DNA of 64,000 nt from contig JAFUYT010000032.1 of NCBI GenBank assembly GCA_017470425.1, positions 86,088 through 150,087 on the forward strand. The letters run 5' to 3'. The notes below the pieces were generated by a model. That model saw only the letters and a list, made by a program, of their open reading frames with translations. It had not been told where the DNA came from and made no database searches. This document shows, one piece after another, positions 51,122 through 64,000 of the stretch. The position numbers were made by a program, and so were the translations under genes. The first letter of the stretch is position 1. Each line of letters starts with the position of its first letter. The stretch comes from Bacteroidaceae bacterium. Its GTDB lineage: Bacteria > Bacteroidota > Bacteroidia > Bacteroidales > Bacteroidaceae.

Positions 51122-51964
51122 ATGAAGAAAGAATATATGCAGGAGAATGAAATTGTTCTCTATCAGCCAAACGACGCTATACACCTGGAGGTAAGAATGG
51201 CAGACGAATCTGTGTGGTTGACACAACCACAGATCGCACTCCTTTTTGGCGTTCAACGTCCAGCCATAACCAAACACCTGCGTAACATTTTTAAGTCTGG
51301 AGAACTTGAGGAGTCGTCAGTTAGTTCCATTTTGGAACATACTGCCACAGACGGCAAGGTTTATCAGACCCAATTCTACAACCTTGATGCAATCCTATCT
51401 GTTGGCTACCGAGTGAACAGCATCAATGCCACCATGTTCCGCAAATGGGCCAACAGTGTGCTAAAGGAATACCTGTTGAAGGGCTATTCCATCAACCAGC
51501 GGTTTGAACGGCTGGAGCAGCGAGTGAGTAGGGCGGAGGAGAAAATTGATTTCTTTGTGCGCACTTCGTTGCCTCCCGTAGAGGGTGTATTCTTCGACGG
51601 TCAAATATACGATGCATACGAACTGGTCAGCAGACTTGTTAAAAGTGCAAGAAGCAGAATCATCCTTATTGACAATTATATTGACGAGAGTGTGCTAACG
51701 CTGCTTGACAAGCGTAAAGATGATGTGTCGGCTAAAATCTATACACAGCAGGCGAATCCCCAGCTACAGCTTGATATTCAGCGGCACGACAGCCAGTATG
51801 CTCCCATCCCTATTCATCTCCTTACCCGCTCTCACGACCGCTTCCTGCTCATCGATGATGACGTCTACCATATCGGTGCCAGCATCAAAGACCTTGGCAA
51901 GCGTTGGTTCGCCATCATGAAGATGCAGGAGACGCAAGCAGATGAGATCATAGCACATTTGTAG
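51122..51964 (+). CDS. RhuM-family protein with C-terminal PLD-like domain
   Basis: A 280-residue protein. The N-terminal half (residues 1-130) is the RhuM family domain: SVWLTQPQIALLFGVQRPAI (a helix-turn-helix-like segment), HLRNIFKSGELEESSV, FYNLDAILSVGYRVNS and FRKWANSVLKEYLLKGY. The second half (about 150-280) resembles a phospholipase D-like fold with SARSRIILIDNYIDESVL and the HKD-like motif HDRFLLIDDDVYHIGAS, in which the usual lysine is arginine. RhuM-type genes are common beside restriction and defence loci in Bacteroidota; their function is unknown. It has its own promoter and precedes brxP by 173 nt, so it may be a regulator or accessory of the BREX locus. Confidence 0.75.
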   Translation: MKKEYMQENEIVLYQPNDAIHLEVRMADESVWLTQPQIALLFGVQRPAITKHLRNIFKSGELEESSVSSILEHTATDGKVYQTQFYNLDAILSVGYRVNSINATMFRKWANSVLKEYLLKGYSINQRFERLEQRVSRAEEKIDFFVRTSLPPVEGVFFDGQIYDAYELVSRLVKSARSRIILIDNYIDESVLTLLDKRKDDVSAKIYTQQANPQLQLDIQRHDSQYAPIPIHLLTRSHDRFLLIDDDVYHIGASIKDLGKRWFAIMKMQETQADEIIAHL

Positions 51965-52103: not shown

Positions 52104-52111
52104 TAACTTTG
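52104..52111 (+). promoter_or_regulatory. -7 promoter element of the BREX locus
   Basis: TAACTTTG, 26 nt before the brxP ATG at 52138. This is the only good promoter element found between here and the end of the window, so the BREX genes probably form one operon. Confidence 0.55.
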
Positions 52112-52137
52112 CAAGCAAAATTGCACGAAACAGATTT

Positions 52138-54663
52138 ATGTATAAGATAACGTGGGACAAAGAGACGGGCGGAGTGCTGTTGCACTCTAGAATTGTAGAA
52201 GGCACGCTTGGTGTGTCTCCTCGTCCTGTGTTCTTCGAAGAACTTGACTTGCTCAAGCTGAACGAACTTGGCTGGGAATACCCTCACTCAATAGAGCCTC
52301 TTTTATGGGCAGTCAACAAGCAGTATTGGTATCAAGGTGAACTGATGTTTGAGGCCAAGGGGGCCAATATCTATGATGCAGCAACGATAGTGTTCCAACC
52401 AGGGAGGGAGAAGATGACGCTGAAGCCGGTGAACGTAGGGAAGATGCTGGCAAAGAACCACGACTTCATGTTCTTGTTGGAGAGTGAGGCTATTGAGTTT
52501 ATCCGTGAGACATTCAGTCAATATGCAGGAGCAAGGAAGAGTGTGGAACGTGTTGCAGCCAACCAGATGGACTTTGAAGCTTTGGCCAAGCGCATGGAGA
52601 AGAAGACCAAGCAGAAGATGGCCATCGTGAAGGAGGACTGCGACAGCTTTGAGATTATGCCACTCGATGCGGCTGAGGAGCAGGGAAAGAAGGTGTTCCA
52701 TACCACAAAGATTGACCGCTTTCTTGCATCGTTCTCTGGTGGTAAAGATTCCCAGGTAGTCCTTGACCTCTGTACGCGGGCAATACCCAGTACCGAGTTT
52801 GAAGTCATCTATAGTGATACAGGCTATGAGTTGCCCCCTTCTTTGCTGCTATATGAGCAGGTGCAAGAGCATTACCACAAGCTGTTTCCAGACTTGAAAT
52901 TCTCTATGGCTCGCAATCATGAGAGTGTATTGAACTATTGGGACAAGATAGGAACGCCAAGCGATACTCATAGGTGGTGCTGTTCCGTTATGAAGACAGG
53001 ACCTCTTTACCGTTCCTTAAAACTTAATGGAAGCAACAAACAAGCCAGAGTCCTTACATTTGATGGAATAAGATCAGAAGAAAGTACCAGGCGTTCTAAT
53101 TACAATAGGATTGGTAAAGGGGTAAAACATGACACGGTAATAAATGCTAGTCCTATTTTGAGTTGGTCTTCTGTCGAAATTTTCTTTTATCTGTGGCAAT
53201 ACGACCTTCCTATAAATCCTGCTTATCGATGTGGTATGACAAGAGTTGGATGCCTTATTTGTCCATTTTCTTCTGAATGGAACGACATGATATCAAGTCG
53301 AAAATACGCTGAACAGCTAAGTCCATTTCTTTCACGGATTGAGGCTATCACTAGGAAATCTGGCGTAAAGGACGTAGATGTTTATATCAAAGAAGGAAAC
53401 TGGAAACGCAGGGCTGGTGGACGTGGAATGGACTTTCCTTCGTCACTAGTGATAGAAGCAAACAAGCCTCATCTCAAAATGACCATTCATAACCCGCAGG
53501 TCAAATTACCTACATGGCTCAATGCTGTAGGCAAATATACAGTCTTCAGCAATGACGATGGAAGTATGTCTGGAGAACTGAAGTACAATGACAAAATGAT
53601 TCCTTTTACTATCACAAACAAGGAAGGTGGCGTTTTCTCTGTTGTATTTGAGAACACATACTCAGACCCTGTTCTCCAAGGGCTTATCAAGCGAGTCTTT
53701 TACAAGGCAACATATTGTATTCATTGTGGTGTGTGCGAAGTCGAATGTCCAACTGGGGCACTTGTAATATCTCCCCAAACTGCTCATATAGACAAAAGTA
53801 AATGCATAAGTTGTAATAAGTGCCTGAACTTTCATGATTTTGGCTGTATATCTGCAGCCTCTTTGGCGGTGACAGGTACTAAAAAAGATCATAAAATGAA
53901 ACTCATCAGTTATAACAATTTTGGAATGAACGAAGGTTGGGTTGAAGTTTACTTTTCTGACCCTGATGCCTTTTTCAACGAAAACCTTGCTGGCTTGAAC
54001 GTTAATGAGCAGATGCCTAGCTTTGCAAAGTGGCTTCATCAGGCAGGAATAATAAGTGACACTAAGGGTAAACAAATAACGCCACTAGGTAGCTTCCTTG
54101 CAGAAACTTATATGGATAACCCAGACTTGGTCTGGCAAATTATCTGGATCAACCTGTCATACAACTCCCCCATTGCAGCCTGGTATAATATTGGGGTTGA
54201 ATGGGGTAAGTTTATCACTCAACAAGAAATGGAGGAACTCGTTTTAAGCGACTATAGCGATAATAGCAAAACAACTGTCCATAATGTTGTCTATGCCTTT
54301 GTCAGGACTTTGAAAGAGAGTCCTCTTGGAGAGATGGGTCTTTTTAGTTCTGTCACTAAGAATGAATTTCAGAAAAAAGGCTTCGATACTATTGAACGAG
54401 AAGCTCTTGCTTACTCTTTATATAAATACTCTGAAGCCAAAGGTGTCCGATCACTTAGGATTTCAGATTTGTTCAGTCCGGAGAACAACTTAGGTGCATT
54501 CCGTGAATTTGGAATAGCCAAGAGTAACATTGAGAAACTTCTTCGGTCACTTAACAGTGATGCGAACCGTGTGTTGATAGCAGAATTAAATATGGGACTT
54601 GAGAGCATAACCTTACGTGAGGATTTGGATTCCATAAGTTGCCTGAAAACTCTTATTGGCTAA
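52138..54663 (+). CDS. brxP: BrxP: PAPS reductase/ferredoxin/DUF4007-like protein of BREX type 4
   Basis: An 841-residue multidomain protein. After an N-terminal region (1-195) comes a PAPS-reductase/PP-loop ATP pyrophosphatase domain with SGGKDSQVVLD (about 200-210), THRWCCSVMKTGPL (about 276-290), DGIRSEESTRR, and CLICPFSSEWND (about 371-382), the cysteine pattern of DndC-like sulphur enzymes. A 2x[4Fe-4S] ferredoxin domain follows (CIHCGVCEVECPTGALV and CISCNKC, about 525-570). The C-terminal 270 residues look like DUF4007, the domain found in SspB of phosphorothioation systems; this last match is from memory of the family. The start at 52138 follows the promoter; the in-frame extension upstream would precede it. 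BrxP is the hallmark of type 4 BREX. Confidence 0.85.
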   Translation: MYKITWDKETGGVLLHSRIVEGTLGVSPRPVFFEELDLLKLNELGWEYPHSIEPLLWAVNKQYWYQGELMFEAKGANIYDAATIVFQPGREKMTLKPVNVGKMLAKNHDFMFLLESEAIEFIRETFSQYAGARKSVERVAANQMDFEALAKRMEKKTKQKMAIVKEDCDSFEIMPLDAAEEQGKKVFHTTKIDRFLASFSGGKDSQVVLDLCTRAIPSTEFEVIYSDTGYELPPSLLLYEQVQEHYHKLFPDLKFSMARNHESVLNYWDKIGTPSDTHRWCCSVMKTGPLYRSLKLNGSNKQARVLTFDGIRSEESTRRSNYNRIGKGVKHDTVINASPILSWSSVEIFFYLWQYDLPINPAYRCGMTRVGCLICPFSSEWNDMISSRKYAEQLSPFLSRIEAITRKSGVKDVDVYIKEGNWKRRAGGRGMDFPSSLVIEANKPHLKMTIHNPQVKLPTWLNAVGKYTVFSNDDGSMSGELKYNDKMIPFTITNKEGGVFSVVFENTYSDPVLQGLIKRVFYKATYCIHCGVCEVECPTGALVISPQTAHIDKSKCISCNKCLNFHDFGCISAASLAVTGTKKDHKMKLISYNNFGMNEGWVEVYFSDPDAFFNENLAGLNVNEQMPSFAKWLHQAGIISDTKGKQITPLGSFLAETYMDNPDLVWQIIWINLSYNSPIAAWYNIGVEWGKFITQQEMEELVLSDYSDNSKTTVHNVVYAFVRTLKESPLGEMGLFSSVTKNEFQKKGFDTIEREALAYSLYKYSEAKGVRSLRISDLFSPENNLGAFREFGIAKSNIEKLLRSLNSDANRVLIAELNMGLESITLREDLDSISCLKTLIG

Positions 54664-55115
54664 TGAGTCTAAAAGTCGCATATTATCGAGGTGTCCTACT
54701 CGAAACTCATCGTGGAAATGGTCGTGGTATCGTTTCTAATGCCAAGCCGTATTTGCTTTTGTCCATTATACGCCTAATTGAACAAGGAGATATAATTGGT
54801 AACAGGATATTGTTTGATAATAATGCACTCTCAGAGACATACAATTCAGTGTCAAAACTATATGAGCCAGATAAGGCTGTAACGCCAATATCCAAGCCTT
54901 TTTTCCATCTCAATAGAGAGCCCTTCTACTATTTGAAATGGAAGTCAGCTACAAAAATCCCCCAACAGGCGATAACTCCTTCTGCAAAATTCCTCCGTGA
55001 AAACGTTGAATATGCCTGTCTTGATGATGCACTTTGGGAGCTGCTTCAAGATCCAGAGACGAGAAACGAATTGAGGGATGCTATCATCCAGCATTTCATA
55101 ACACCGAGAACGTAA
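54663..55115 (+). CDS. Small protein like the N-terminal domain of phosphorothioate-dependent HNH endonucleases
   Basis: A 150-residue protein whose start overlaps the brxP stop (TAATG), so it is translationally coupled to BrxP. The pattern AKPYLLLSIIRLIEQGDIIGN (quoted in parts: AKPYLLLSIIRLIE and QGDIIGN, about residues 25-45) followed by FHLNREPFYYLKW (about 88-100) and ACLDDALWELLQDPETRNEL (about 122-141) resembles the region preceding the HNH domain in putative restriction endonucleases of the ScoMcrA/SprMcrA type, where a domain recognises phosphorothioated DNA. No HNH motif is present. It is not among the four defining genes of type 4 BREX. Recognition of sulphur-modified DNA is a hypothesis; the resemblance is by eye only. 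Confidence 0.45.
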   Translation: MSLKVAYYRGVLLETHRGNGRGIVSNAKPYLLLSIIRLIEQGDIIGNRILFDNNALSETYNSVSKLYEPDKAVTPISKPFFHLNREPFYYLKWKSATKIPQQAITPSAKFLRENVEYACLDDALWELLQDPETRNELRDAIIQHFITPRT

Positions 55116-55140
55116 AAATAGAAATAAAAAACCAATAGCT

Positions 55141-58100
55141 ATGCCTTACAGCAAAATAGTGACGCTGCGAAATATGCGTCCAGCATACAATATCAAAGAA
55201 GAGAGTCAGGGAGAATGGAAATCGTTCATCGCCAATGACCAGTTCAACGACATATTGATGAAAACCATCCGTGCTGTACGCAACAATGATGCCGACACGC
55301 ACAAGTCGATATGGATAGCTGGAACTTACGGCACGGGAAAGTCTCATGCTGGAGCTGTGATTCAGCATTTGCTTTGCGACCCTGTGGATGACATCCGTGA
55401 GTATGTTGAGGAAGAATATCAGAAGTCTAAGTACGACATTCTGCGTGACTCGTTGTTGCAACTTCGCAAAACCAAACGGCTCTTTCCTGTGAATATGTAT
55501 GGCCAGCAAAGCATTGCACACGAGGAAGACCTGTCACTACAGCTGCAAAGGGAAATCAAGCGCAGTCTGGTAGCTGCAGGCATAGACATCACCGTGCAGA
55601 CCGACTTTGATATGTACGTGCAGCACATAGAGAGTCAGCCGCAGTTCTGGCAGAGCCTGATAGCACAGAATGCACAATTGGAGAGTGTTGCTCCGGATGT
55701 CAACAAACTGAAGCAGAGACTGACGGCAGCAGATACAGACGTGCTGGACTATGTACGTCAGGCTCTGCGTAAAGGAGGTTATGATATTCGCCTTCAGAGC
55801 AACAACCTGAAGCAATGGATATTTGAAGTGCAAGATGCGGTTCGCGAAAAAACTGACTACAATGGTCTGTTGATTATATGGGATGAATTTACAGAGGTAA
55901 TGACATCCGTCATCGGTACGCGTCTATTGGTGCAACTTCAGGAAATATCTGAGGCGATGATGAACGATGAGAATGACTCCTACTTCCTGTTTATCTCTCA
56001 TCCGTCAGCCCTGAACTCATTGAAAGAGGAAGAGCGTGAGAAGACCAAAGGCCGCTATCACTATGTTATATATAACATGGAGCCCGTCTCGGCTTTCAAG
56101 ATCATGTCGAAGAAGTTCAAGATAGTGGACTACACGCTCTATATGATGCGACAGGATCGTTTCTTTGGCATCCATCCAGAACTGCTCGATTTGTTCAGTA
56201 CGACAAGTGCTGATACAGAGCAGACCAAAGAGAATATCAAGAACCTCTTCCCCTTGCATCCCTGTACAGCCAACCTCGCTACCTACTACGCACGTGAGGC
56301 CGGTTCCAGCAGTCGAAGTGTATTTGAGTTTATCGCCAGCGACTCAGTCAGGAACTTTTTGGATGACGAAGAAGCCTACAACCAAGACAGAACCATTACG
56401 GCAGACTATCTGTGGGACTACGTGCAGGAGTATTTCGAGAGTGACGCTGCGAAGTTTGGAGCGGTAACAGAACGCTATAACAGCCATCACCTGTCTGTCG
56501 AGAGCCAAGGTGAGAACTATCTGAAAGTATTCAAAGGCATACTATTGCTGAATGCATTGAACAACATTGCCAATAGCGACACCGTGACTCCAAGCACGGA
56601 AAACATAGAGAACCTCTTCTTAGGCACAGAGGTTGAAGGCCAGTTGGAAGAGATACTCGACTTCTTCAACGACAAAAGCATCATCCAACGGCAGCCCAAT
56701 GGTAACTTCTCCATCCTCTTTACCGCTCTGCCAGGTGATGAGATTCAGAAAATCAAGGAGCAACTGAAAGCTTCCAGTTTCCTCTATACCGACCAAGTCA
56801 TCAAGTTTGGCACTACGGCTGAGAACATCTTCATGAGGAACTTCTCACAAGTGGCTCGTCCGTTCAGCTTCCAGTTCTTCAGCATCCAAGGCAACGAATA
56901 CACGCTGATGAACCGCATAGAAAATGCCAAGCGGATGGCACAGCCCTACGAAACCTTTATGGCCATTATGGTTGGACGCGACACTCAGGAGTTGATACAA
57001 CTGAAAGACATCGCAGAAAGGAATAGTGCTGATGAGCGCTATCAGTCAATAGCCTTTGTAGTTATGGAAACCGCAATGGGAACGAAAGAGTATGAGCGCT
57101 TCATAGAGTACCAGGCGAATGCACAGGTTGCCCAGAGCCATAGCCTGCCCCAGCAGCACCAGACCTACACCAAGCAAGCATCGGAAATGATACAACAATG
57201 GGTGAACAGTATGCGAGGCAAAAATGTGACGTTCTACCTGAACGGCGAGAGTATGACTATCGTAGGCAGCAAGATGACGAGCACCATCAATGCAGCCATT
57301 GCTCCTGCCATATTCACTTCTGGTCCGGAGTCATTGGAGTCTATCAGAACCAAAAGCAGCACCACCTATTGGAAGAAAGCATCTGTGAAGGCAACGGTGG
57401 ATGCCGTACTGAACTACAATACAAAACAGGACATACTGGACCGTTGTGGCGGTCCGGCCCGCCATGTGGAGTTCCTGTTGCAAGACAGCGTGGACGACAA
57501 CCTGCAATGGAAAGACACCGTCTCGCCCAAGCATCCGCTGAAGTTGGTATGCGACTACGTAGACGAGTGGCTTAGCGGACGACATACCAGCAAGAACCAG
57601 AGTTTCAATCTGGGCGAGAAACTGATTGGACTGACAGAACCACCATTTGGACTATTCCAGAGCTATGCGCCTATGGCAATGGTGGCATTTGCCATGAGGA
57701 AATACGTCAATATCATTTTCGATACCAATGGCAAACAACGTACCGCCCAACATTTGGTGGATGACGTAGTGGAACTGTTCAAAGCATGGGAGAGCGGCAA
57801 GAACAGCAATAAGCTGAACTTCATTTTCGAGAGTAAAGAGGCAGGCCGCGTGAGCAAGAGCCTCATCAGGATGTTCGGACTCAATAAGTTGAAAGGCTAT
57901 TCCGACATCAGTAGTCTGAAAGATGCCCGTTGGGCAGTACTCCACGTTTATTCGAAAGAGAAGGGTTACCCCCTGTGGTCGCTGAAATATACAGAAGACT
58001 GCACAGGCGACATGAAGGAGTTTATCGACAACCTGATGAAGGTGGTGACAGATCCTGAGAGCATGAAGAATCCTCGCTTGCTGGAGGCCACCATCAACGG

Positions 58101-58563
58101 ATATGACATGCTGAAGACAGACTTCGGTAACCTGTTGCTGCCTCAGGAAAACAACTTCGAGAAAGGTTTTGTGACCTACATGAAAGGCGTGGAAATTGTG
58201 GATGTGAAAGACGATGAGGTGGAAGCAGCCACCAAGTATCTGCATGAACATCTGGAAAGCGAAGTTGGCATGTGGACTGAGGAAGAGGTGAAGGACAAAT
58301 TGAAAGACTGGCGAATGACTACGATTCAGCCCGTGACTCCTGCGGTTCCACCAGTTACTCCTGGTATGCCCATACCGCCCACAACCGTTCCTGGGATGCC
58401 TCCTACCCAACCTGTGCCAATAATCAGTCCAGATGATCTGAAGAAGAAACGCAACAAAGCCATCAACCGAGTGAACAATACTGACGACCTGCGTCAAGCT
58501 ATTGAGAACATGATCAATGCAGAAGACAGTAACGTGATTGATATTCTGTTGAAATATGTATAA
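55141..58563 (+). CDS. brxC: BrxC: large AAA-type ATPase of BREX type 4
   Basis: A 1140-residue P-loop ATPase of the BrxC/PglY group. Walker A is GTYGTGKSHA (about residues 61-70) and Walker B is LLIIWDEFTE (about 242-251). The middle is helical and acidic; near residues 1060-1090 a proline-rich linker (PVTPAVPPVTPGMPIPPTT) leads to a basic C-terminal helix. BrxC is essential in characterised BREX systems and is thought to assemble with PglZ and other components on DNA. It begins 25 nt after the small gene, and its last codons overlap the pglZ start by 8 nt. Length is in the normal range (about 1100-1200). Confidence 0.88.
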   Translation: MPYSKIVTLRNMRPAYNIKEESQGEWKSFIANDQFNDILMKTIRAVRNNDADTHKSIWIAGTYGTGKSHAGAVIQHLLCDPVDDIREYVEEEYQKSKYDILRDSLLQLRKTKRLFPVNMYGQQSIAHEEDLSLQLQREIKRSLVAAGIDITVQTDFDMYVQHIESQPQFWQSLIAQNAQLESVAPDVNKLKQRLTAADTDVLDYVRQALRKGGYDIRLQSNNLKQWIFEVQDAVREKTDYNGLLIIWDEFTEVMTSVIGTRLLVQLQEISEAMMNDENDSYFLFISHPSALNSLKEEEREKTKGRYHYVIYNMEPVSAFKIMSKKFKIVDYTLYMMRQDRFFGIHPELLDLFSTTSADTEQTKENIKNLFPLHPCTANLATYYAREAGSSSRSVFEFIASDSVRNFLDDEEAYNQDRTITADYLWDYVQEYFESDAAKFGAVTERYNSHHLSVESQGENYLKVFKGILLLNALNNIANSDTVTPSTENIENLFLGTEVEGQLEEILDFFNDKSIIQRQPNGNFSILFTALPGDEIQKIKEQLKASSFLYTDQVIKFGTTAENIFMRNFSQVARPFSFQFFSIQGNEYTLMNRIENAKRMAQPYETFMAIMVGRDTQELIQLKDIAERNSADERYQSIAFVVMETAMGTKEYERFIEYQANAQVAQSHSLPQQHQTYTKQASEMIQQWVNSMRGKNVTFYLNGESMTIVGSKMTSTINAAIAPAIFTSGPESLESIRTKSSTTYWKKASVKATVDAVLNYNTKQDILDRCGGPARHVEFLLQDSVDDNLQWKDTVSPKHPLKLVCDYVDEWLSGRHTSKNQSFNLGEKLIGLTEPPFGLFQSYAPMAMVAFAMRKYVNIIFDTNGKQRTAQHLVDDVVELFKAWESGKNSNKLNFIFESKEAGRVSKSLIRMFGLNKLKGYSDISSLKDARWAVLHVYSKEKGYPLWSLKYTEDCTGDMKEFIDNLMKVVTDPESMKNPRLLEATINGYDMLKTDFGNLLLPQENNFEKGFVTYMKGVEIVDVKDDEVEAATKYLHEHLESEVGMWTEEEVKDKLKDWRMTTIQPVTPAVPPVTPGMPIPPTTVPGMPPTQPVPIISPDDLKKKRNKAINRVNNTDDLRQAIENMINAEDSNVIDILLKYV

Positions 58564-60979
58564 GGAACCGTTCAGAGATATTGAAGCCCTGAAGCAACAT
58601 GTGGAGGAGGACAAACAAGCAAGGGGCGTGGGTGCAGCAACGCTCGACCGCTACCCCATACGCTTTGTGCTGTTCGATAACTTCCGCGACTGCTACGACT
58701 TTGTAGATTTTCTGCAAAGTGAGCGAGGTGCCCATGTGGAGAGCGTTGACAGGTGGATAGATTCCAACTATCCCGACCTGATGATTACCCATGTGGAACT
58801 GGCAGAGAGAATACAGGAGCACATCAAAAAGAAAAGTCCACACGACTGTGTGATAGCCCCTTTCTCTGAACTTGCCCGATTCTATGATAACGACGAGAAG
58901 AAATCGTTTGATGCGCTGCTGAAGACCATCAAGGCCATACAGGCAACCAGCGAAGGTGTGGAAAGTCATCAGCGTGTCTATATTCCGTTGGTTGGACTGG
59001 AAGGCAAGATGGAAGCCTTCAAAGAGGATACACAAATCAATATATGGCGGTTGTTGTCGAAAGAGAAAGACCTGACCTATAAGCTGATACTGACCAACCA
59101 AAATGATTTCGGAGTGAAAGGTTTGGAGGCAAACTACACCATAGTTAACGATATTCGCGAATGGCTTAACATCTGGAAAGACAGCAAGCAGCAGGTATCT
59201 CCACAGATTATATGCAAGTCGCGTTCTATCTATGCCAATGCTGTGTATGCCCAGCCCGATAATGCTTTCAGTTATGAGACCTGCCGCAACGCTTACGAGT
59301 TTCTAGCTCATGGTTTGGGGCTCAACTTCGGAGGCTTACAACCGCTGATGAGCGATGGCAATAACTGGGAGTTGTTGGCAGAGGAGATAGATGTCAGTAA
59401 AGGTTTCAGTTTCCCCAAATTCGTAAAACAATATTTCGGTATTGACGATATAGAGAGCTATAAGGATTTCATTCGTCTCTGGTTCAGTCATCCGAGCATC
59501 TTCGACCGATGGCTGTTGGCCCGCTACTACGACAATAAGGAAAACGGTCAGGGATACCTGTGCCGGGTATTGAAAGCAACAACCAATTATGGGACGAATG
59601 AGCTGATAGAGGCGATGGCAGGAGATATATCTGAGAATACTGCTGAGATGGACATTCGCCGTTATTGCCTAAAATATGCTGCCCAGCAGAACGTGTTGCT
59701 TACAGAGGCAGCGGAGAGTATGGTGGCAAGAATGTTGCAAGCGCTGCCAGAGAGAATGGGTTATACAAGCGCTTTACGGTACTTTACAGGCATCACTCGT
59801 AAGGAGAAGGAAATTGCATTGCAATGGCTGGGCAATGGCAAGATTCGGGCTGATGAGTTGGAGAATTTCTATCCAGACCTGTATTGCTATGCAGCAGAAG
59901 GAATCGGAATCAGCGCAGGAGTGCCAGATTGGTTGACTGACTATATCGAGAAGTATAAACGGGCAAAGTTGGCTAATCGCTATAGCGAAGAAATCAGCCA
60001 AACCATACAGAGTTTGAATGAGACAGAATCGAAATTCGACCTGTGGTATAACAGTTTCAGTACTGTTTACACTTTACTGAAGAACCGAGGAGATATCGAG
60101 GTGTTCTATTGGATTGACGGTCTGGGTATTGACTGGATACCATTGGTAAAACAAATCGTCGCAGAGCACAAAGAACAGCAAATCTACCTGAATGAAGTTA
60201 AAATAGCAAGAGCCAAGCTACCAACAAAAACCGACATTAACAAGACGGAATTGCAACGACTTCTACCCGAAGGACAGACGCTGGAGAAGTTTGGCGATTT
60301 GGATGCCCAGGCACATCGCACCGATAACATCAGTCCCTTTACGATCATTAAGGAGATTGAACTGGTAAGGAAGAGTATAGAGGACATTCTGCAACTATAT
60401 ATTGGAAAGAAAATAGCCATTATCTCTGACCACGGGCTGACATATCTTTCACAATTAGTCAGCGGGAAGAACCTTACTGGAGTTGAAAGCGATCATCACG
60501 GGCGCATTGCCATCAGGAAGAAAGCAGGAGTGGATGCTGACAGCAGTTACTTCCGTTTGGAGGACGGTAAAACACTCTGCGCCCTAAAACACGAGTCACT
60601 TTGTTCAAAGGTGCCAACCAATCAAGGAGCACATGGAGGTTGTACGCCTGAAGAAGTGTTGGTGCCAATCTTTATTATCAGTAGTGCTCCAGCACCGACC
60701 AATTGGTCTGCACAACTGCTTACATACGAAATTAGCGGTTCCAACCCAAGGGCACAGATAGAAATCAAGAATCTCCCATCGACTGACGTTCCCCACGTTA
60801 TATATAATGGTAGAACCTATCAGTTGCATAATATTGAAGGCGATATTTATGAGACCGATGATTTAATCCTTGATGTGAATTGCCAGGATATGTCATTGAA
60901 CATTGGAGACGTAGAACGACCGATGCGGATAAAGGTGAGCACGGGAGTTCAGGAAGACGACTTATTCGGAGGACTTTAA
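58556..60979 (+). CDS. pglZ: PglZ: alkaline-phosphatase-fold protein of BREX
   Basis: An 807-residue BREX core protein. The C-terminal PglZ domain has FYWIDGLGIDWIP (about 515-527), IAIISDHGLTYLSQL (about 618-632) and HGGCTPEEVLVPIFII (about 692-707), with the aspartates and histidines of the alkaline phosphatase superfamily. The N-terminal 480 residues are helical and specific to this lineage. PglZ is the gene that defines BREX; it is needed for defence and for self-modification where that has been tested. Its ATG overlaps the end of brxC by 8 nt, and brxL follows after 15 nt, consistent with one operon. Confidence 0.92.
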   Translation: MYKEPFRDIEALKQHVEEDKQARGVGAATLDRYPIRFVLFDNFRDCYDFVDFLQSERGAHVESVDRWIDSNYPDLMITHVELAERIQEHIKKKSPHDCVIAPFSELARFYDNDEKKSFDALLKTIKAIQATSEGVESHQRVYIPLVGLEGKMEAFKEDTQINIWRLLSKEKDLTYKLILTNQNDFGVKGLEANYTIVNDIREWLNIWKDSKQQVSPQIICKSRSIYANAVYAQPDNAFSYETCRNAYEFLAHGLGLNFGGLQPLMSDGNNWELLAEEIDVSKGFSFPKFVKQYFGIDDIESYKDFIRLWFSHPSIFDRWLLARYYDNKENGQGYLCRVLKATTNYGTNELIEAMAGDISENTAEMDIRRYCLKYAAQQNVLLTEAAESMVARMLQALPERMGYTSALRYFTGITRKEKEIALQWLGNGKIRADELENFYPDLYCYAAEGIGISAGVPDWLTDYIEKYKRAKLANRYSEEISQTIQSLNETESKFDLWYNSFSTVYTLLKNRGDIEVFYWIDGLGIDWIPLVKQIVAEHKEQQIYLNEVKIARAKLPTKTDINKTELQRLLPEGQTLEKFGDLDAQAHRTDNISPFTIIKEIELVRKSIEDILQLYIGKKIAIISDHGLTYLSQLVSGKNLTGVESDHHGRIAIRKKAGVDADSSYFRLEDGKTLCALKHESLCSKVPTNQGAHGGCTPEEVLVPIFIISSAPAPTNWSAQLLTYEISGSNPRAQIEIKNLPSTDVPHVIYNGRTYQLHNIEGDIYETDDLILDVNCQDMSLNIGDVERPMRIKVSTGVQEDDLFGGL

Positions 60980-60994
60980 AATTGGAGATGACTT

Positions 60995-62458
60995 ATGAAA
61001 GAAGAAATATGCAATAAAATCAGGCAGCACTTTTCTGCCATGTCTATATACAAAGACCCAGCATCAACGGGCAGCCTGTTTGCAGGACGCAACCTTCCTG
61101 CTTTTGTGAAGGACTTCTTGTTGAAGCGTTATCTGAACGTACAGACGGGAGAAATAGACAAATTGGCGTTGACACAGTTTCTTGACAAAGTGATTCCCTC
61201 ACAACAGGGAATTGTGAAAGATCGTTTGCAAAGTGGTGAAGAAGTGACGTTGCTTGCACGCTTCATGGTGTATATCGACATCGTGAAGAACGAGCGCCAG
61301 TTTGCGATACCTGATTATGGCATTAAATTGCGTGAAGGCATCATTCCTGAATATGTCTATTCGAAGAATTCTGGTGATTTTGTTGACGGAGAGCGTTGGG
61401 GTATCATCAAACTTTGCCTGCTGCCTGACAGCAATGGAAAGACTAGCCATATCCAGATGGTTGACTATAAGGCATTCAAGCCCTATAGTTCTGTGGATGT
61501 AGGGTATTTGGCAGATGCGCGTCAGTACTTCACTACACAAGAGTGGATAGACGTGCTACTATCTGCAATGGAGTATGACCCCGACGGGTTCGCGTCTTTG
61601 ACTCAAAAGTTGGAGTTCCTAACCCGACTGTTGATATTCATTGAGCCAAGGCTAAACGTAATAGAGTTGGCCCCAAAGGGTACAGGTAAAAGCTATGTGT
61701 TTGGCAACTTGTCGAAGTATGGCTGGCTAGTTAGCGGTGGAAAGGTGACTCGTGCAAAATTGTTCTTTGACAAGGCCAAGCAGCAGAATGGTATTATCAA
61801 GAACCATGACTTCACCGTGTTTGATGAGATCCAGACCATTGTGTTTCAGGAGCCAGCAGAAATACAAGCGGCTTTGAAGTCTTATCTGGAGAGCGGAAAG
61901 ACAACTATCGACAATAATGAGTTTACTTCCGAATGTGGTCTGATGTTGATGGGAAATATCCCATTGTCGGCACACAACGTGCCTATTTCTCAGATGTATT
62001 TCGACAATCTTCCAAAGAACTTCCGAGAGTCAGCATTGTTAGACAGATTCCATTGCTTTATCGAAGGTTGGCTGTTGCCTCGTGTCGACAAAAGCATGAT
62101 TTTCAAAGGTTGGACCATCAATGTGGAGTATTTCTCTGAGATATTGCATTCCATGCGAACACAAAATACATACGGGCTGCTATTTGACCAGTTGGTTCGA
62201 TTCGAAGAGAAAGCTGATGTTCGCGACAGTAACGCCATTAAACGGATTGCCACAGCTTATATGAAACTTCTATTCCCCCATTGGCATCGGATTGAGGATG
62301 TTAATGAAGACGAGTTCCGTATGTATTGCCTTGAGCCAGCGATTCATAGACGTGGCATTGTGAAGACACAGTGTCATAACATTGACCCCGAATTCAAAAC
62401 TCGGATGCCGGTTGTGGATATCGTAGAACGAGGATTTACGGAGAATAAACTTTTCTAA
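60995..62458 (+). CDS. brxL: BrxL: Lon-like AAA+ protein of BREX (short form)
   Basis: A 487-residue AAA+ protein. It has an N-terminal region (1-200), Walker A APKGTGKSYVFGNLS (about 225-239), Walker B FTVFDEIQTIVF (about 271-282), and the sensor region GLMLMGNIPLS..NLPKNFRESALLDRFH. It ends soon after the AAA+ domain at VERGFTENKLF and so lacks the C-terminal Lon-protease-like domain of the longer (about 680-residue) type 1 BrxL. Short BrxL forms are known as a separate family, so this need not be a truncation. BrxL forms DNA-encircling rings in type 1 systems and is needed for phage exclusion but not for host modification. It is the last of the four defining type 4 genes. Confidence 0.88.
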   Translation: MKEEICNKIRQHFSAMSIYKDPASTGSLFAGRNLPAFVKDFLLKRYLNVQTGEIDKLALTQFLDKVIPSQQGIVKDRLQSGEEVTLLARFMVYIDIVKNERQFAIPDYGIKLREGIIPEYVYSKNSGDFVDGERWGIIKLCLLPDSNGKTSHIQMVDYKAFKPYSSVDVGYLADARQYFTTQEWIDVLLSAMEYDPDGFASLTQKLEFLTRLLIFIEPRLNVIELAPKGTGKSYVFGNLSKYGWLVSGGKVTRAKLFFDKAKQQNGIIKNHDFTVFDEIQTIVFQEPAEIQAALKSYLESGKTTIDNNEFTSECGLMLMGNIPLSAHNVPISQMYFDNLPKNFRESALLDRFHCFIEGWLLPRVDKSMIFKGWTINVEYFSEILHSMRTQNTYGLLFDQLVRFEEKADVRDSNAIKRIATAYMKLLFPHWHRIEDVNEDEFRMYCLEPAIHRRGIVKTQCHNIDPEFKTRMPVVDIVERGFTENKLF

Positions 62459-62461
62459 TCT

Positions 62462-64000
62462 ATGGTTGTCTATTACATCAAGAAGGTGGGCGAAAGTCTG
62501 GCTGATTATCGCTATCCAATAAAGGAAGGCGATATTTGCATGCTGTATGACGGTGAAGTAATCAAGACTATATATATTGATAGTGAAACGGACTCGGACT
62601 CCATTTGGCGCGACTATAAATTCATAGACACAAAATCGCTCAAGAGCTATCAGTTCCCCGCATCTGACTGCATCCTTTGCGCACCCACAGGAGATAGACA
62701 TGCTATCGGAAATACAGGATTACTCACCCAGCTGATCAAAGACTGTAAAGGAGAGTGGCTCTTGGATTTTTTGAACGAGACATCAGCTGTCCTTTCTGGT
62801 TTTGTGGATTATTGGGATTTAGGAATATTGAGAAGGTTCATTGGTGATGACGATATTGAGGTTGCATACGAAAATGAGGAATCTTTGTCTGAGTTCCTTG
62901 AAAAGCCAGATGACCAAGAAACTGATGACGAATATGAAGATGAGGAAGAAGTCGATGATACAGACTTCTTGCCCAAAAGCTATGACATAAAATGGTTTTG
63001 CCTTTCAGCATTAACTTGTATTGAGGACCAGTTAGATAAGCGTAGTTATCAAATTCTTGCCGCCACGCTAAAAGGCGACTCCCGTAGCGAAATTGCAGAC
63101 AGACATCGTCTTACTCAAGAACGAATACGGCAAATTGTCGTTAAAACTACCAAGCAAGCCAAAGAACTGCTTATAGAGCAACGAAAAAGCCTTGATGAGA
63201 CAAAAGCAGAGAATGCGAAACTAAAGGTTCAGCTAAATCTTCTGAGAGAAGATATTGCAGGTTTGAAGGCTCTGCTTCCAAAAGATGTATTCATTTTAAA
63301 GTCGGATGAACAAGATATTGACAATGAACTAACAGAGTTGCTGGAAACTCCTCTCATGGAAATAAACCTACCTGCACGAGCTGCTAACATACTCAAATAT
63401 ATGGGTATTAAAAAGTTTGCAGACATTCCACAGATAGACAGTTACATGCGAGTAATGAAAGAAAGAAACAGCGGCAGAAAGACAGTTCATGATGTCTCGC
63501 GGCTGTTGGAGGATTTCCATTTGACTTTTGGTATGTCGTACACCGAAATAGTTAATGTGCTAAGAGAAAACGATTGGTATGCTGCGAAAAGAAAATGGAT
63601 GGGTGGATATAAAGATAAGGATAGCGAAATAGAGCATAAGAACACTAGTAATAACACGGAATCCTCAAAACAGGATAACAATTCCGAAGGAGGCACTTAT
63701 AGTTTTACGTCGGAGAAACCAGACAAAAGAATTGGCTATCTTGTTAGGTTATTCCCTTCACAACAGGTGGGTGTGATTGTAAGTGCTAAGACAGATGGGA
63801 AGGGTATCAAGAAACTTGTTGTGCGAACGAATGAAGGGAATACTATGGTAATTGACGACCTGCCGTATCTTTATGAGGTGCTGAAACGAGAAGCTACTAC
63901 TAAGGTGGATGTCGCTGAAGAGAACCCGAAGAAGACTGATGAGATAGCGTCAGAAGAAGCAACAATTACTCTAACTCGTGATATTATTGAGGCAGCACGA
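62462..64000 (+). CDS. Sigma region 4-like / RNA polymerase alpha-CTD-like fusion protein, partial
   Basis: At least 513 residues; the end is beyond the window. It starts 3 nt after brxL (MVVYYIKKVGESLADYRY). Domains by eye: an unknown N-terminus (1-130), an acidic linker (133-170, DDQETDDEYEDEEEVDD), a sigma-70 region 4-like helix-turn-helix (about 192-235, LKGDSRSEIADRHRLTQERI), a coiled coil (230-272), a helix-hairpin-helix domain resembling the RNA polymerase alpha-subunit C-terminal domain (301-350, LPARAANILKYMGIKKFADI..NSGRKTVHDV), and a C-terminal beta-rich part. No enzyme motif is seen. Tight linkage to brxL suggests that it belongs to the BREX operon as regulator or DNA-binding partner, but this is inference. 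Confidence 0.6.
   Translation, partial: MVVYYIKKVGESLADYRYPIKEGDICMLYDGEVIKTIYIDSETDSDSIWRDYKFIDTKSLKSYQFPASDCILCAPTGDRHAIGNTGLLTQLIKDCKGEWLLDFLNETSAVLSGFVDYWDLGILRRFIGDDDIEVAYENEESLSEFLEKPDDQETDDEYEDEEEVDDTDFLPKSYDIKWFCLSALTCIEDQLDKRSYQILAATLKGDSRSEIADRHRLTQERIRQIVVKTTKQAKELLIEQRKSLDETKAENAKLKVQLNLLREDIAGLKALLPKDVFILKSDEQDIDNELTELLETPLMEINLPARAANILKYMGIKKFADIPQIDSYMRVMKERNSGRKTVHDVSRLLEDFHLTFGMSYTEIVNVLRENDWYAAKRKWMGGYKDKDSEIEHKNTSNNTESSKQDNNSEGGTYSFTSEKPDKRIGYLVRLFPSQQVGVIVSAKTDGKGIKKLVVRTNEGNTMVIDDLPYLYEVLKREATTKVDVAEENPKKTDEIASEEATITLTRDIIEAAR

Follow-up and report, generated by a model that had tools for sequence, protein, structure and literature searches.

BREX type 4, encoded by brxPCZL, is described as a BREX based on DNA phosphorothioation (PMC12839542), and brxPCZL as the third family of phosphorothioate (PT) synthesis (PMC11931770); both papers cite Yuan et al. 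2024 for this. In the Ssp systems (SspABCD with SspE or SspFGH), SspE reads PT for self/non-self discrimination, and its antiphage activity relies on host PT (PMC9646914). Sulfur-binding domains (SBDs) bind Rp-PT DNA (PMC6224610), and the SBD-HNH PT-dependent restriction endonucleases act against PT. Type 4 BREX, the PT mark and SBDs are all known already. The window, the whole 64,000-nt stretch of contig JAFUYT010000032.1 from a Bacteroidaceae bacterium, ends in a type 4 operon with a further small gene between brxP and brxC, whose product is assigned here as a stand-alone SBD. The locus is read as a phosphorothioate-based BREX type 4 operon, PT itself being published for the system and presumed for this locus, and it probably possesses its own nuclease-free PT reader, with self-recognition as the preferred output. 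Full-text literature searches returned no description of PT-based BREX in which an SBD is a conserved part, a point on which supplements and Yuan et al. 2024 may hold a mention; the main text of PMC12839542 has 0 occurrences of both 'SBD' and 'McrA', and the portions of the literature examined named no PT reader for type 4 BREX.

The features of the operon are listed below in window positions; the window end is also the contig end.

52138..54663, + strand: brxP, 841 aa from ATG; PADLOC BrxP 7.7e-272
54663..55115, + strand: small gene, stand-alone SBD, 150 aa; ATG overlaps the brxP stop (TAATG)
54744..54746, + strand: Lys28 codon of the small gene, aligned with R117 of ScoMcrA-SBD in the sulfur pocket
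54897..54899, + strand: Pro79 codon of the small gene, aligned with P165 of ScoMcrA-SBD at the bottom of the sulfur pocket
55141..58563, + strand: brxC, AAA+ ATPase (SspC-like), 1140 aa; PADLOC BrxC E 0, 2257 bits; SspC 5.6e-20
58556..60979, + strand: pglZ of BREX type 4, 807 aa; PADLOC PglZ E 0, 1391 bits
60995..62458, + strand: brxL (BrxL_N and BrxL_ATPase), 487 aa; PADLOC BrxL 3.4e-226
62462..64000, + strand: accessory gene 3 nt 3' of brxL, cut by the contig end; RNA polymerase alpha-CTD-like part and weak sigma70-r4-like part

The small protein as a sulfur-binding domain

The 150-aa small protein, left unidentified in an earlier sequence-only reading of this DNA, is on fold and profile comparison a stand-alone SBD. 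The TTG start listed for its gene at 54639 is unlikely because the in-frame ATG overlaps the brxP stop. Compared with the solved structures of SBDHga1 (8h0l), ScoMcrA (5ZMO) and SprMcrA (7CC9), it has the same fold and the same pocket Lys/Arg and Pro, but it differs in standing alone, with no HNH or SRA domain, and in carrying Ala for the His before the pocket Lys. SBDHga1 is presumably a Hahella protein. The N-terminal domain of the SBD-HNH enzymes is homologous to the small protein, with an hhalign E of 4.9e-33.

The residues K28 and P79 are the only invariant positions in the 44-row alignment A2, from which 7 of the 51 SBD hits were omitted (L037, L049 and L062 as incomplete or shortened, L072 and L096 as repeats, L076 and L112 for their other architecture). 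Across all 51 hits, K28 is retained in 50/50 and P79 in 49/49 covering rows. The equivalents in 27 other SBD proteins, K31 and P81, are likewise invariant; in the alignment they correspond to the ScoMcrA motifs HR and YP, the residue match to ScoMcrA being made via the SBD-HNH protein set. The ScoMcrA pocket consists of H116, R117, Y164, P165 and A168, with R117 replaced by Lys in most homologues; PT binding is lost when R117 or P165 is mutated, although the authors caution that the Pro change may harm folding (PMC6224610). Type 4 SBDs have Lys at the R117 position and Pro at the P165 position, and a pocket around K28 and P79 is expected to let the small protein bind the Rp sulfur in PT-DNA.

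A Pfam scan of 46 type 4 SBD proteins (44 plus L076 and L112) found no HNH domain. The small protein reaches 17 bits against a cut-off of 180 for NF045808, the model of the SBD-HNH PT-dependent restriction endonuclease, and its candidacy as such an enzyme was rejected for the missing HNH. An assignment to DUF2642 was also rejected, the Pfam match (0.027) lying below the family cut-off. A Fisher test of 0/51 versus 25/27 is not relied on, as it treats kin rows as independent and counts five ORFs lacking a Pfam scan.

Assignment of the core operon

BrxP combines a PAPS reductase domain (Pfam PAPS_reduct, 2.5e-31), a 4Fe-4S ferredoxin-like region (Fer4, 1.2e-7) and a C-terminal, SspB-like DUF4007 domain (5.5e-8), contains the motifs SGGKDS and CxxCxxCxxxC, and is the presumed PT writer; an earlier TTG start exists for its ORF, and its length is counted from the ATG. 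The Walker A motif of BrxC is GTYGTGKS. PglZ scores 758.8 bits against a cut-off of 140 for NCBIfam NF033445 (BREX_PglZ_4) and displays the motifs DGLG, SDHG and HGGCTPEE, while BrxL matches TIGR02688 (2.4e-128, 428.6 bits against 329.3) and, in Pfam, BrxL_ATPase (2.1e-115) and BrxL_N (3.2e-25). A BrxP with PAPS reductase in place of PglX thereby stands in one operon with BrxC, a type 4 PglZ and BrxL. PADLOC found no PglX among the operon proteins, and the source genome, a draft that is 72% complete, gave a single match to BREX_1_MTaseX, at 23 bits against a cut-off of 500. The genome also provides for a housekeeping sulfur donor: it has two strong matches to aminotransferase class V, a family that includes cysteine desulfurases but is broad.

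The sequence-only reading had called brxP, brxC, pglZ and brxL, in that order and lacking the PglX methyltransferase, a BREX type 4 locus. PADLOC and NCBIfam agree with this call, the HMM searches it proposed assign the proteins to BREX families and PglZ to type 4, and the gene order is retained in relatives. Its description of same-strand genes with overlaps or short gaps also holds, all five genes lying on the + strand, with one base shared by the brxP stop and the small-gene ATG and 8 nt shared by brxC and pglZ. Other statements do not survive: the position 52104, given as the start of the locus, is a TAACTTTG element rather than a gene, with no TTG at the spacing scanned; the argument from a single recognisable promoter carries no weight and was dropped, because TANNTTTG is as frequent here (4 matches in 14 kb) as in shuffles (3.8 expected); and the view that the mark of type 4 is unknown is outdated, given phosphorothioation in PMC11931770 and PMC12839542.

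The window shares with described BREX type 4 the four core proteins, their order and the absence of PglX, and adds the SBD gene and the accessory gene after brxL. Relative to Ssp, BrxP matches the SspD and SspB models and BrxC that of SspC, whereas the effectors are PglZ and BrxL and the putative reader is an SBD; no SspE model was matched among the six operon proteins in PADLOC.

Distribution across type 4 loci

A profile search with a PglZ alignment supplied 76 loci, drawn from the 80 best of 117 ranked by similarity to the PglZ of the window, and these, with the window and 5 relatives, made 82 sources in which SBDs were sought with our own HMMs on locus maps built by simple longest-ORF picking. 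An SBD was found in 51 of them. Among the 79 sources with BrxC, the SBD lies between brxP and brxC in 48, is absent in 24, follows brxL in 2 and was not judged in 5, amounting to 48/74 judged loci with repeats included and 47/70 without L075, L096, L097 and L102 (L052 and L072, with identical BrxC, both retained; L105 omitted as too short). Repeated or near-identical loci are L032/L097, L036/L050, L101/L102, L074/L075, L053/L096 and L052/L072. Within the 48, L037 sits at a contig edge and the copies of L049 and L062 are shortened; L076, with no brxC on its contig, has its SBD after brxL on the opposite strand. The sequence-only reading took the coupled small gene to suggest a module of more than four genes; the gene is indeed conserved in many type 4 loci.

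In 45 junction loci (the 48 minus L072, L096 and L037, the last without brxP), an in-frame start occurs within 6 nt of the brxP stop in 40 and between -24 and +18 in 44, with the shortened SBD ORF of L062 starting at +75. In a BrxC tree (FastTree, 74 rows), clade A of 60 rows has a junction SBD in 47, none in 11 and 2 not judged, and clade B of 14 rows has a junction SBD in 0, an SBD after brxL in 2 (L035 and L112), none in 10 and 2 not judged, a pattern that fits an old presence of the SBD in clade A followed by several losses. In a quick tree, a branch with support 92 separates the 43 junction SBDs of A2 from the SBDs of SBD-HNH proteins, of fusions and of genes after brxL. The median pairwise identity of the SBD is 35% in the 37 loci where all five genes are full-length, the set also used for distance correlations.

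As a separate observation, L089, from a record titled Erysipelotrichaceae, holds a Bacteroidales-like type 4 BREX with an SBD, which is likely to reflect either erroneous binning or a transfer.

SBDs outside type 4 and the DUF4007 fusion

A search of 395 Bacteroidota genomes gave 27 with an SBD match and 29 matches listed; setting aside the window's own SBD and L136, a fragment in L144, left 27 proteins, of which 25 match HNH_2 and one DUF4007, L128 being truncated and L140 being the DUF4007 fusion. PMC7461809 argues that SBD-HNH genes can be expected to stay away from dnd clusters with matching specificity and reports that <3.6% of them may lie near such clusters; a nuclease-free SBD next to a PT writer fits this avoidance rule.

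A fusion of this kind lies in L142 (genome G315). This locus encodes SspB, an SspC split over two ORFs, SspD, an SBD-DUF4007 protein of 422 aa, a protein of 1478 aa, PglZ and BrxL, together with an SspA/DndA-like cysteine desulfurase. Among 200 genomes of that family, the fusion recurs in G718 (66% identity) and, interrupted, in G560. These SspABCD, PglZ and BrxL loci (L142, L172 and L173) have PT writer genes, PglZ, BrxL and an SBD in common with the window, but their SBD forms the N-terminal part of a second DUF4007 protein, the PAPS reductase and the first DUF4007 have a gene each, and the loci also encode a cysteine desulfurase and a protein of about 1450 aa. DUF4007 is the C-terminal domain of BrxP as well, whose gene abuts the SBD gene, and the fusions suggest, as gene-fusion evidence, a working link short of proof of contact.

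Plasmid searches matched 3 DUF4007 records outside the SBD part and 9 SBD records (8 HNH endonucleases and 1 hypothetical protein), and a scan of viral contigs with BrxP found no relative. The protein of about 1450 aa is conserved between the DUF4007 paralogue and PglZ of the SspABCD-PglZ-BrxL loci (L142:4537-8973, L172-L179), and the L142 copy has no Pfam match above cut-off. At L144:8600-8990, an N-terminal SBD fragment with a stop lies directly upstream of a dndC-like gene (BrxP profile, 4.8e-13) and then an ATPase-like gene; the fragment may stem from an SBD-HNH gene that was disrupted by the arrival of a PT writer. At L143:6346-7285, an SBD-HNH gene is apparently split into an SBD of 147 aa and an HNH-like ORF of 95 aa.

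Proposed mechanism and alternative explanations

In the proposed mechanism, BrxP, with BrxC, would write sulfur into the DNA backbone, as published for the system, and the stand-alone SBD would bind the Rp sulfur through its K28/P79 pocket. Judging by the gene position and the SBD-DUF4007 fusions, the SBD would most likely dock on the BREX machinery via the DUF4007 end of BrxP or via BrxC, reporting the DNA as marked. In the preferred output, reader-occupied PT sites would keep PglZ and BrxL from attacking host DNA or would hold the complex in place on it, a self-recognition step comparable to the PT reading by SspE in Ssp. Guidance of further modification, for example at sites half-modified after replication, is nearly as likely an output as self-recognition.

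Several observations weigh against this account. Type 4 BREX is reported to act without restriction endonuclease activity (PMC11931770), while PglZ is given as a nuclease in PMC12839542. The residue at the H116 position is Ala in 47/50 and His in 3/50 covering type 4 rows, so affinity may differ; SprMcrA has Tyr there (PMC7470945), His being common rather than universal, and His at this position was not taken as defining for an SBD. The SBD is also dispensable, its junction lacking it in 11/58 judged rows of clade A and 12/12 of clade B. The idea of overlooked divergent copies was rejected, as two profiles run unfiltered found no hidden SBD in the 23 SBD-less tree loci (best E 0.052). Distance correlations of the SBD are modest for BrxP (0.44, partial 0.28) and PglZ (0.53, partial 0.23), with a partial value of -0.12 for BrxC; close coevolution with one partner was dropped, none being singled out. 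The DUF4007-paralogue comparison covered 9 of 11 genomes with strong DUF4007-part matches (no SspD was picked up in L179), and of the nine loci 3 carry the SBD part and 6 the DUF4007 part alone. Since selection favoured similarity to the PglZ of the window, the survey loci are nearly all Bacteroidales by title, with very thin coverage of other phyla. The SBD may also have a plain DNA-binding role, as PMC10853773 regards it as a winged helix-turn-helix (wHTH).

The last point leads to an autoregulator, a winged-helix-type binder that would turn its own operon down or up once the promoter carries PT, for which DndB, a negative regulator of dnd (PMC7461809), offers a parallel. The gene lies inside the operon, between writer and ATPase, and an XRE-type regulator is found just upstream of brxP in 15/44 loci with a junction SBD and in 3/23 without, making autoregulation improbable; since the two occur together, the SBD is no simple XRE replacement, and its role as a stand-in for that regulator was rejected. 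A role in writer maintenance or targeting, with the SBD seeing PT on one strand and bringing BrxP-BrxC to finish or spread the modification without directly taking part in restriction, is possible if somewhat doubtful. The SBD gene comes right after that of the writer, to which its start is coupled, and its fusion partner elsewhere is a DUF4007 protein scored by PADLOC as SspB of the Ssp modification set; however, SBD-less loci retain an otherwise complete writer, so the SBD is not strictly needed for writing.

An SspE-like activator, in which binding of host PT would switch a BREX effector on against unmarked phage DNA, has its precedent in the reliance of SspE on host PT (PMC9646914) and gains from the shared operon with effector genes, but the small protein consists of one domain of DNA-binding type, has no enzymatic part and is lacking in about one fifth of the clade A rows, leaving this explanation rather unlikely. 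Restriction of PT-marked invaders with another motif in the manner of Type IV systems, with PglZ as the nuclease, draws on the kinship of the SBD with PT-dependent restriction enzymes; given an SBD that sits in a PT writer operon and bears no nuclease, and predicted SBD-HNH enzymes of which <3.6% may lie near dnd genes (PMC7461809), it is very improbable. Hardly credible is a functionless, degenerate remnant of an SBD-HNH gene, a view consistent with the missing HNH part and with the shortened L049 and L062 copies, as the gene holds the same place in the 48 junction loci, the junction SBDs form one clade, and K28 and P79 are unchanged in every covering row despite the low median identity.

Beyond a nuclease-free PT reader in type 4, it is conceivable, if slightly on the doubtful side of even, that PT-based BREX repeatedly took up the SBD-HNH reading domain without its nuclease, as a self/non-self sensor sparing a sparsely marked genome from PglZ/BrxL, in forms that would include the stand-alone protein between writer and ATPase, the DUF4007 fusion and a part of the protein after brxL. 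Auxiliary effectors in PMC12839542 include HNH proteins with wHTH and SRA domains. SBD-HNH enzymes are natural enemies of PT-DNA, and the reader, if real, would place writing and reading of the sulfur mark in one operon. Sparing a partially PT-marked host genome is a fundamental question for Ssp, answered there by SspE reading (PMC9646914). The two identifiable pocket residues make the self/non-self question testable by one deletion and two point mutants, and the small protein could double as a compact natural reagent that binds PT-DNA and carries no nuclease.

Accessory slot and flanking genes

The operon probably continues past brxL, with an ORF from 62462 starting 3 nt after the brxL stop. 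Its product matches RNA_pol_A_CTD in Pfam (1.3e-6, 28.5 bits against a cut-off of 23.8) and, below cut-off, Sigma70_r4 (0.0043), and relatives occupy the same slot in other loci. The AlphaFold2 model is poor (pLDDT 58). The slot is filled by a gene from one of several families, in many cases a few nt away from the brxL stop. The families comprise proteins of about 490-720 aa with sigma-r4/alpha-CTD-like parts, as in the window, of about 91-93 aa and of about 177 aa, as well as mosaic proteins in which an SBD may be present (L035, L112).

The G+C content, about 0.5-0.66 upstream, goes down to 0.41-0.48 from about 52 kb onward, and the closest BrxC, at 97% identity, comes from an Alloprevotella assembly of roe-deer rumen. 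Just upstream of brxP, at a distance of up to about 70 nt, 20 loci (L080, L084, L077, L078 and 16 more) have a small gene for an XRE-type regulator. In the window, a RhuM-family protein (51122-51964; PADLOC PDC-S05, 1.6e-122) is encoded 173 nt upstream of brxP, its residues 238-279 matching the end of the VPA1262_N_dom profile, and a RhuM-like ORF lies upstream in L034 too.

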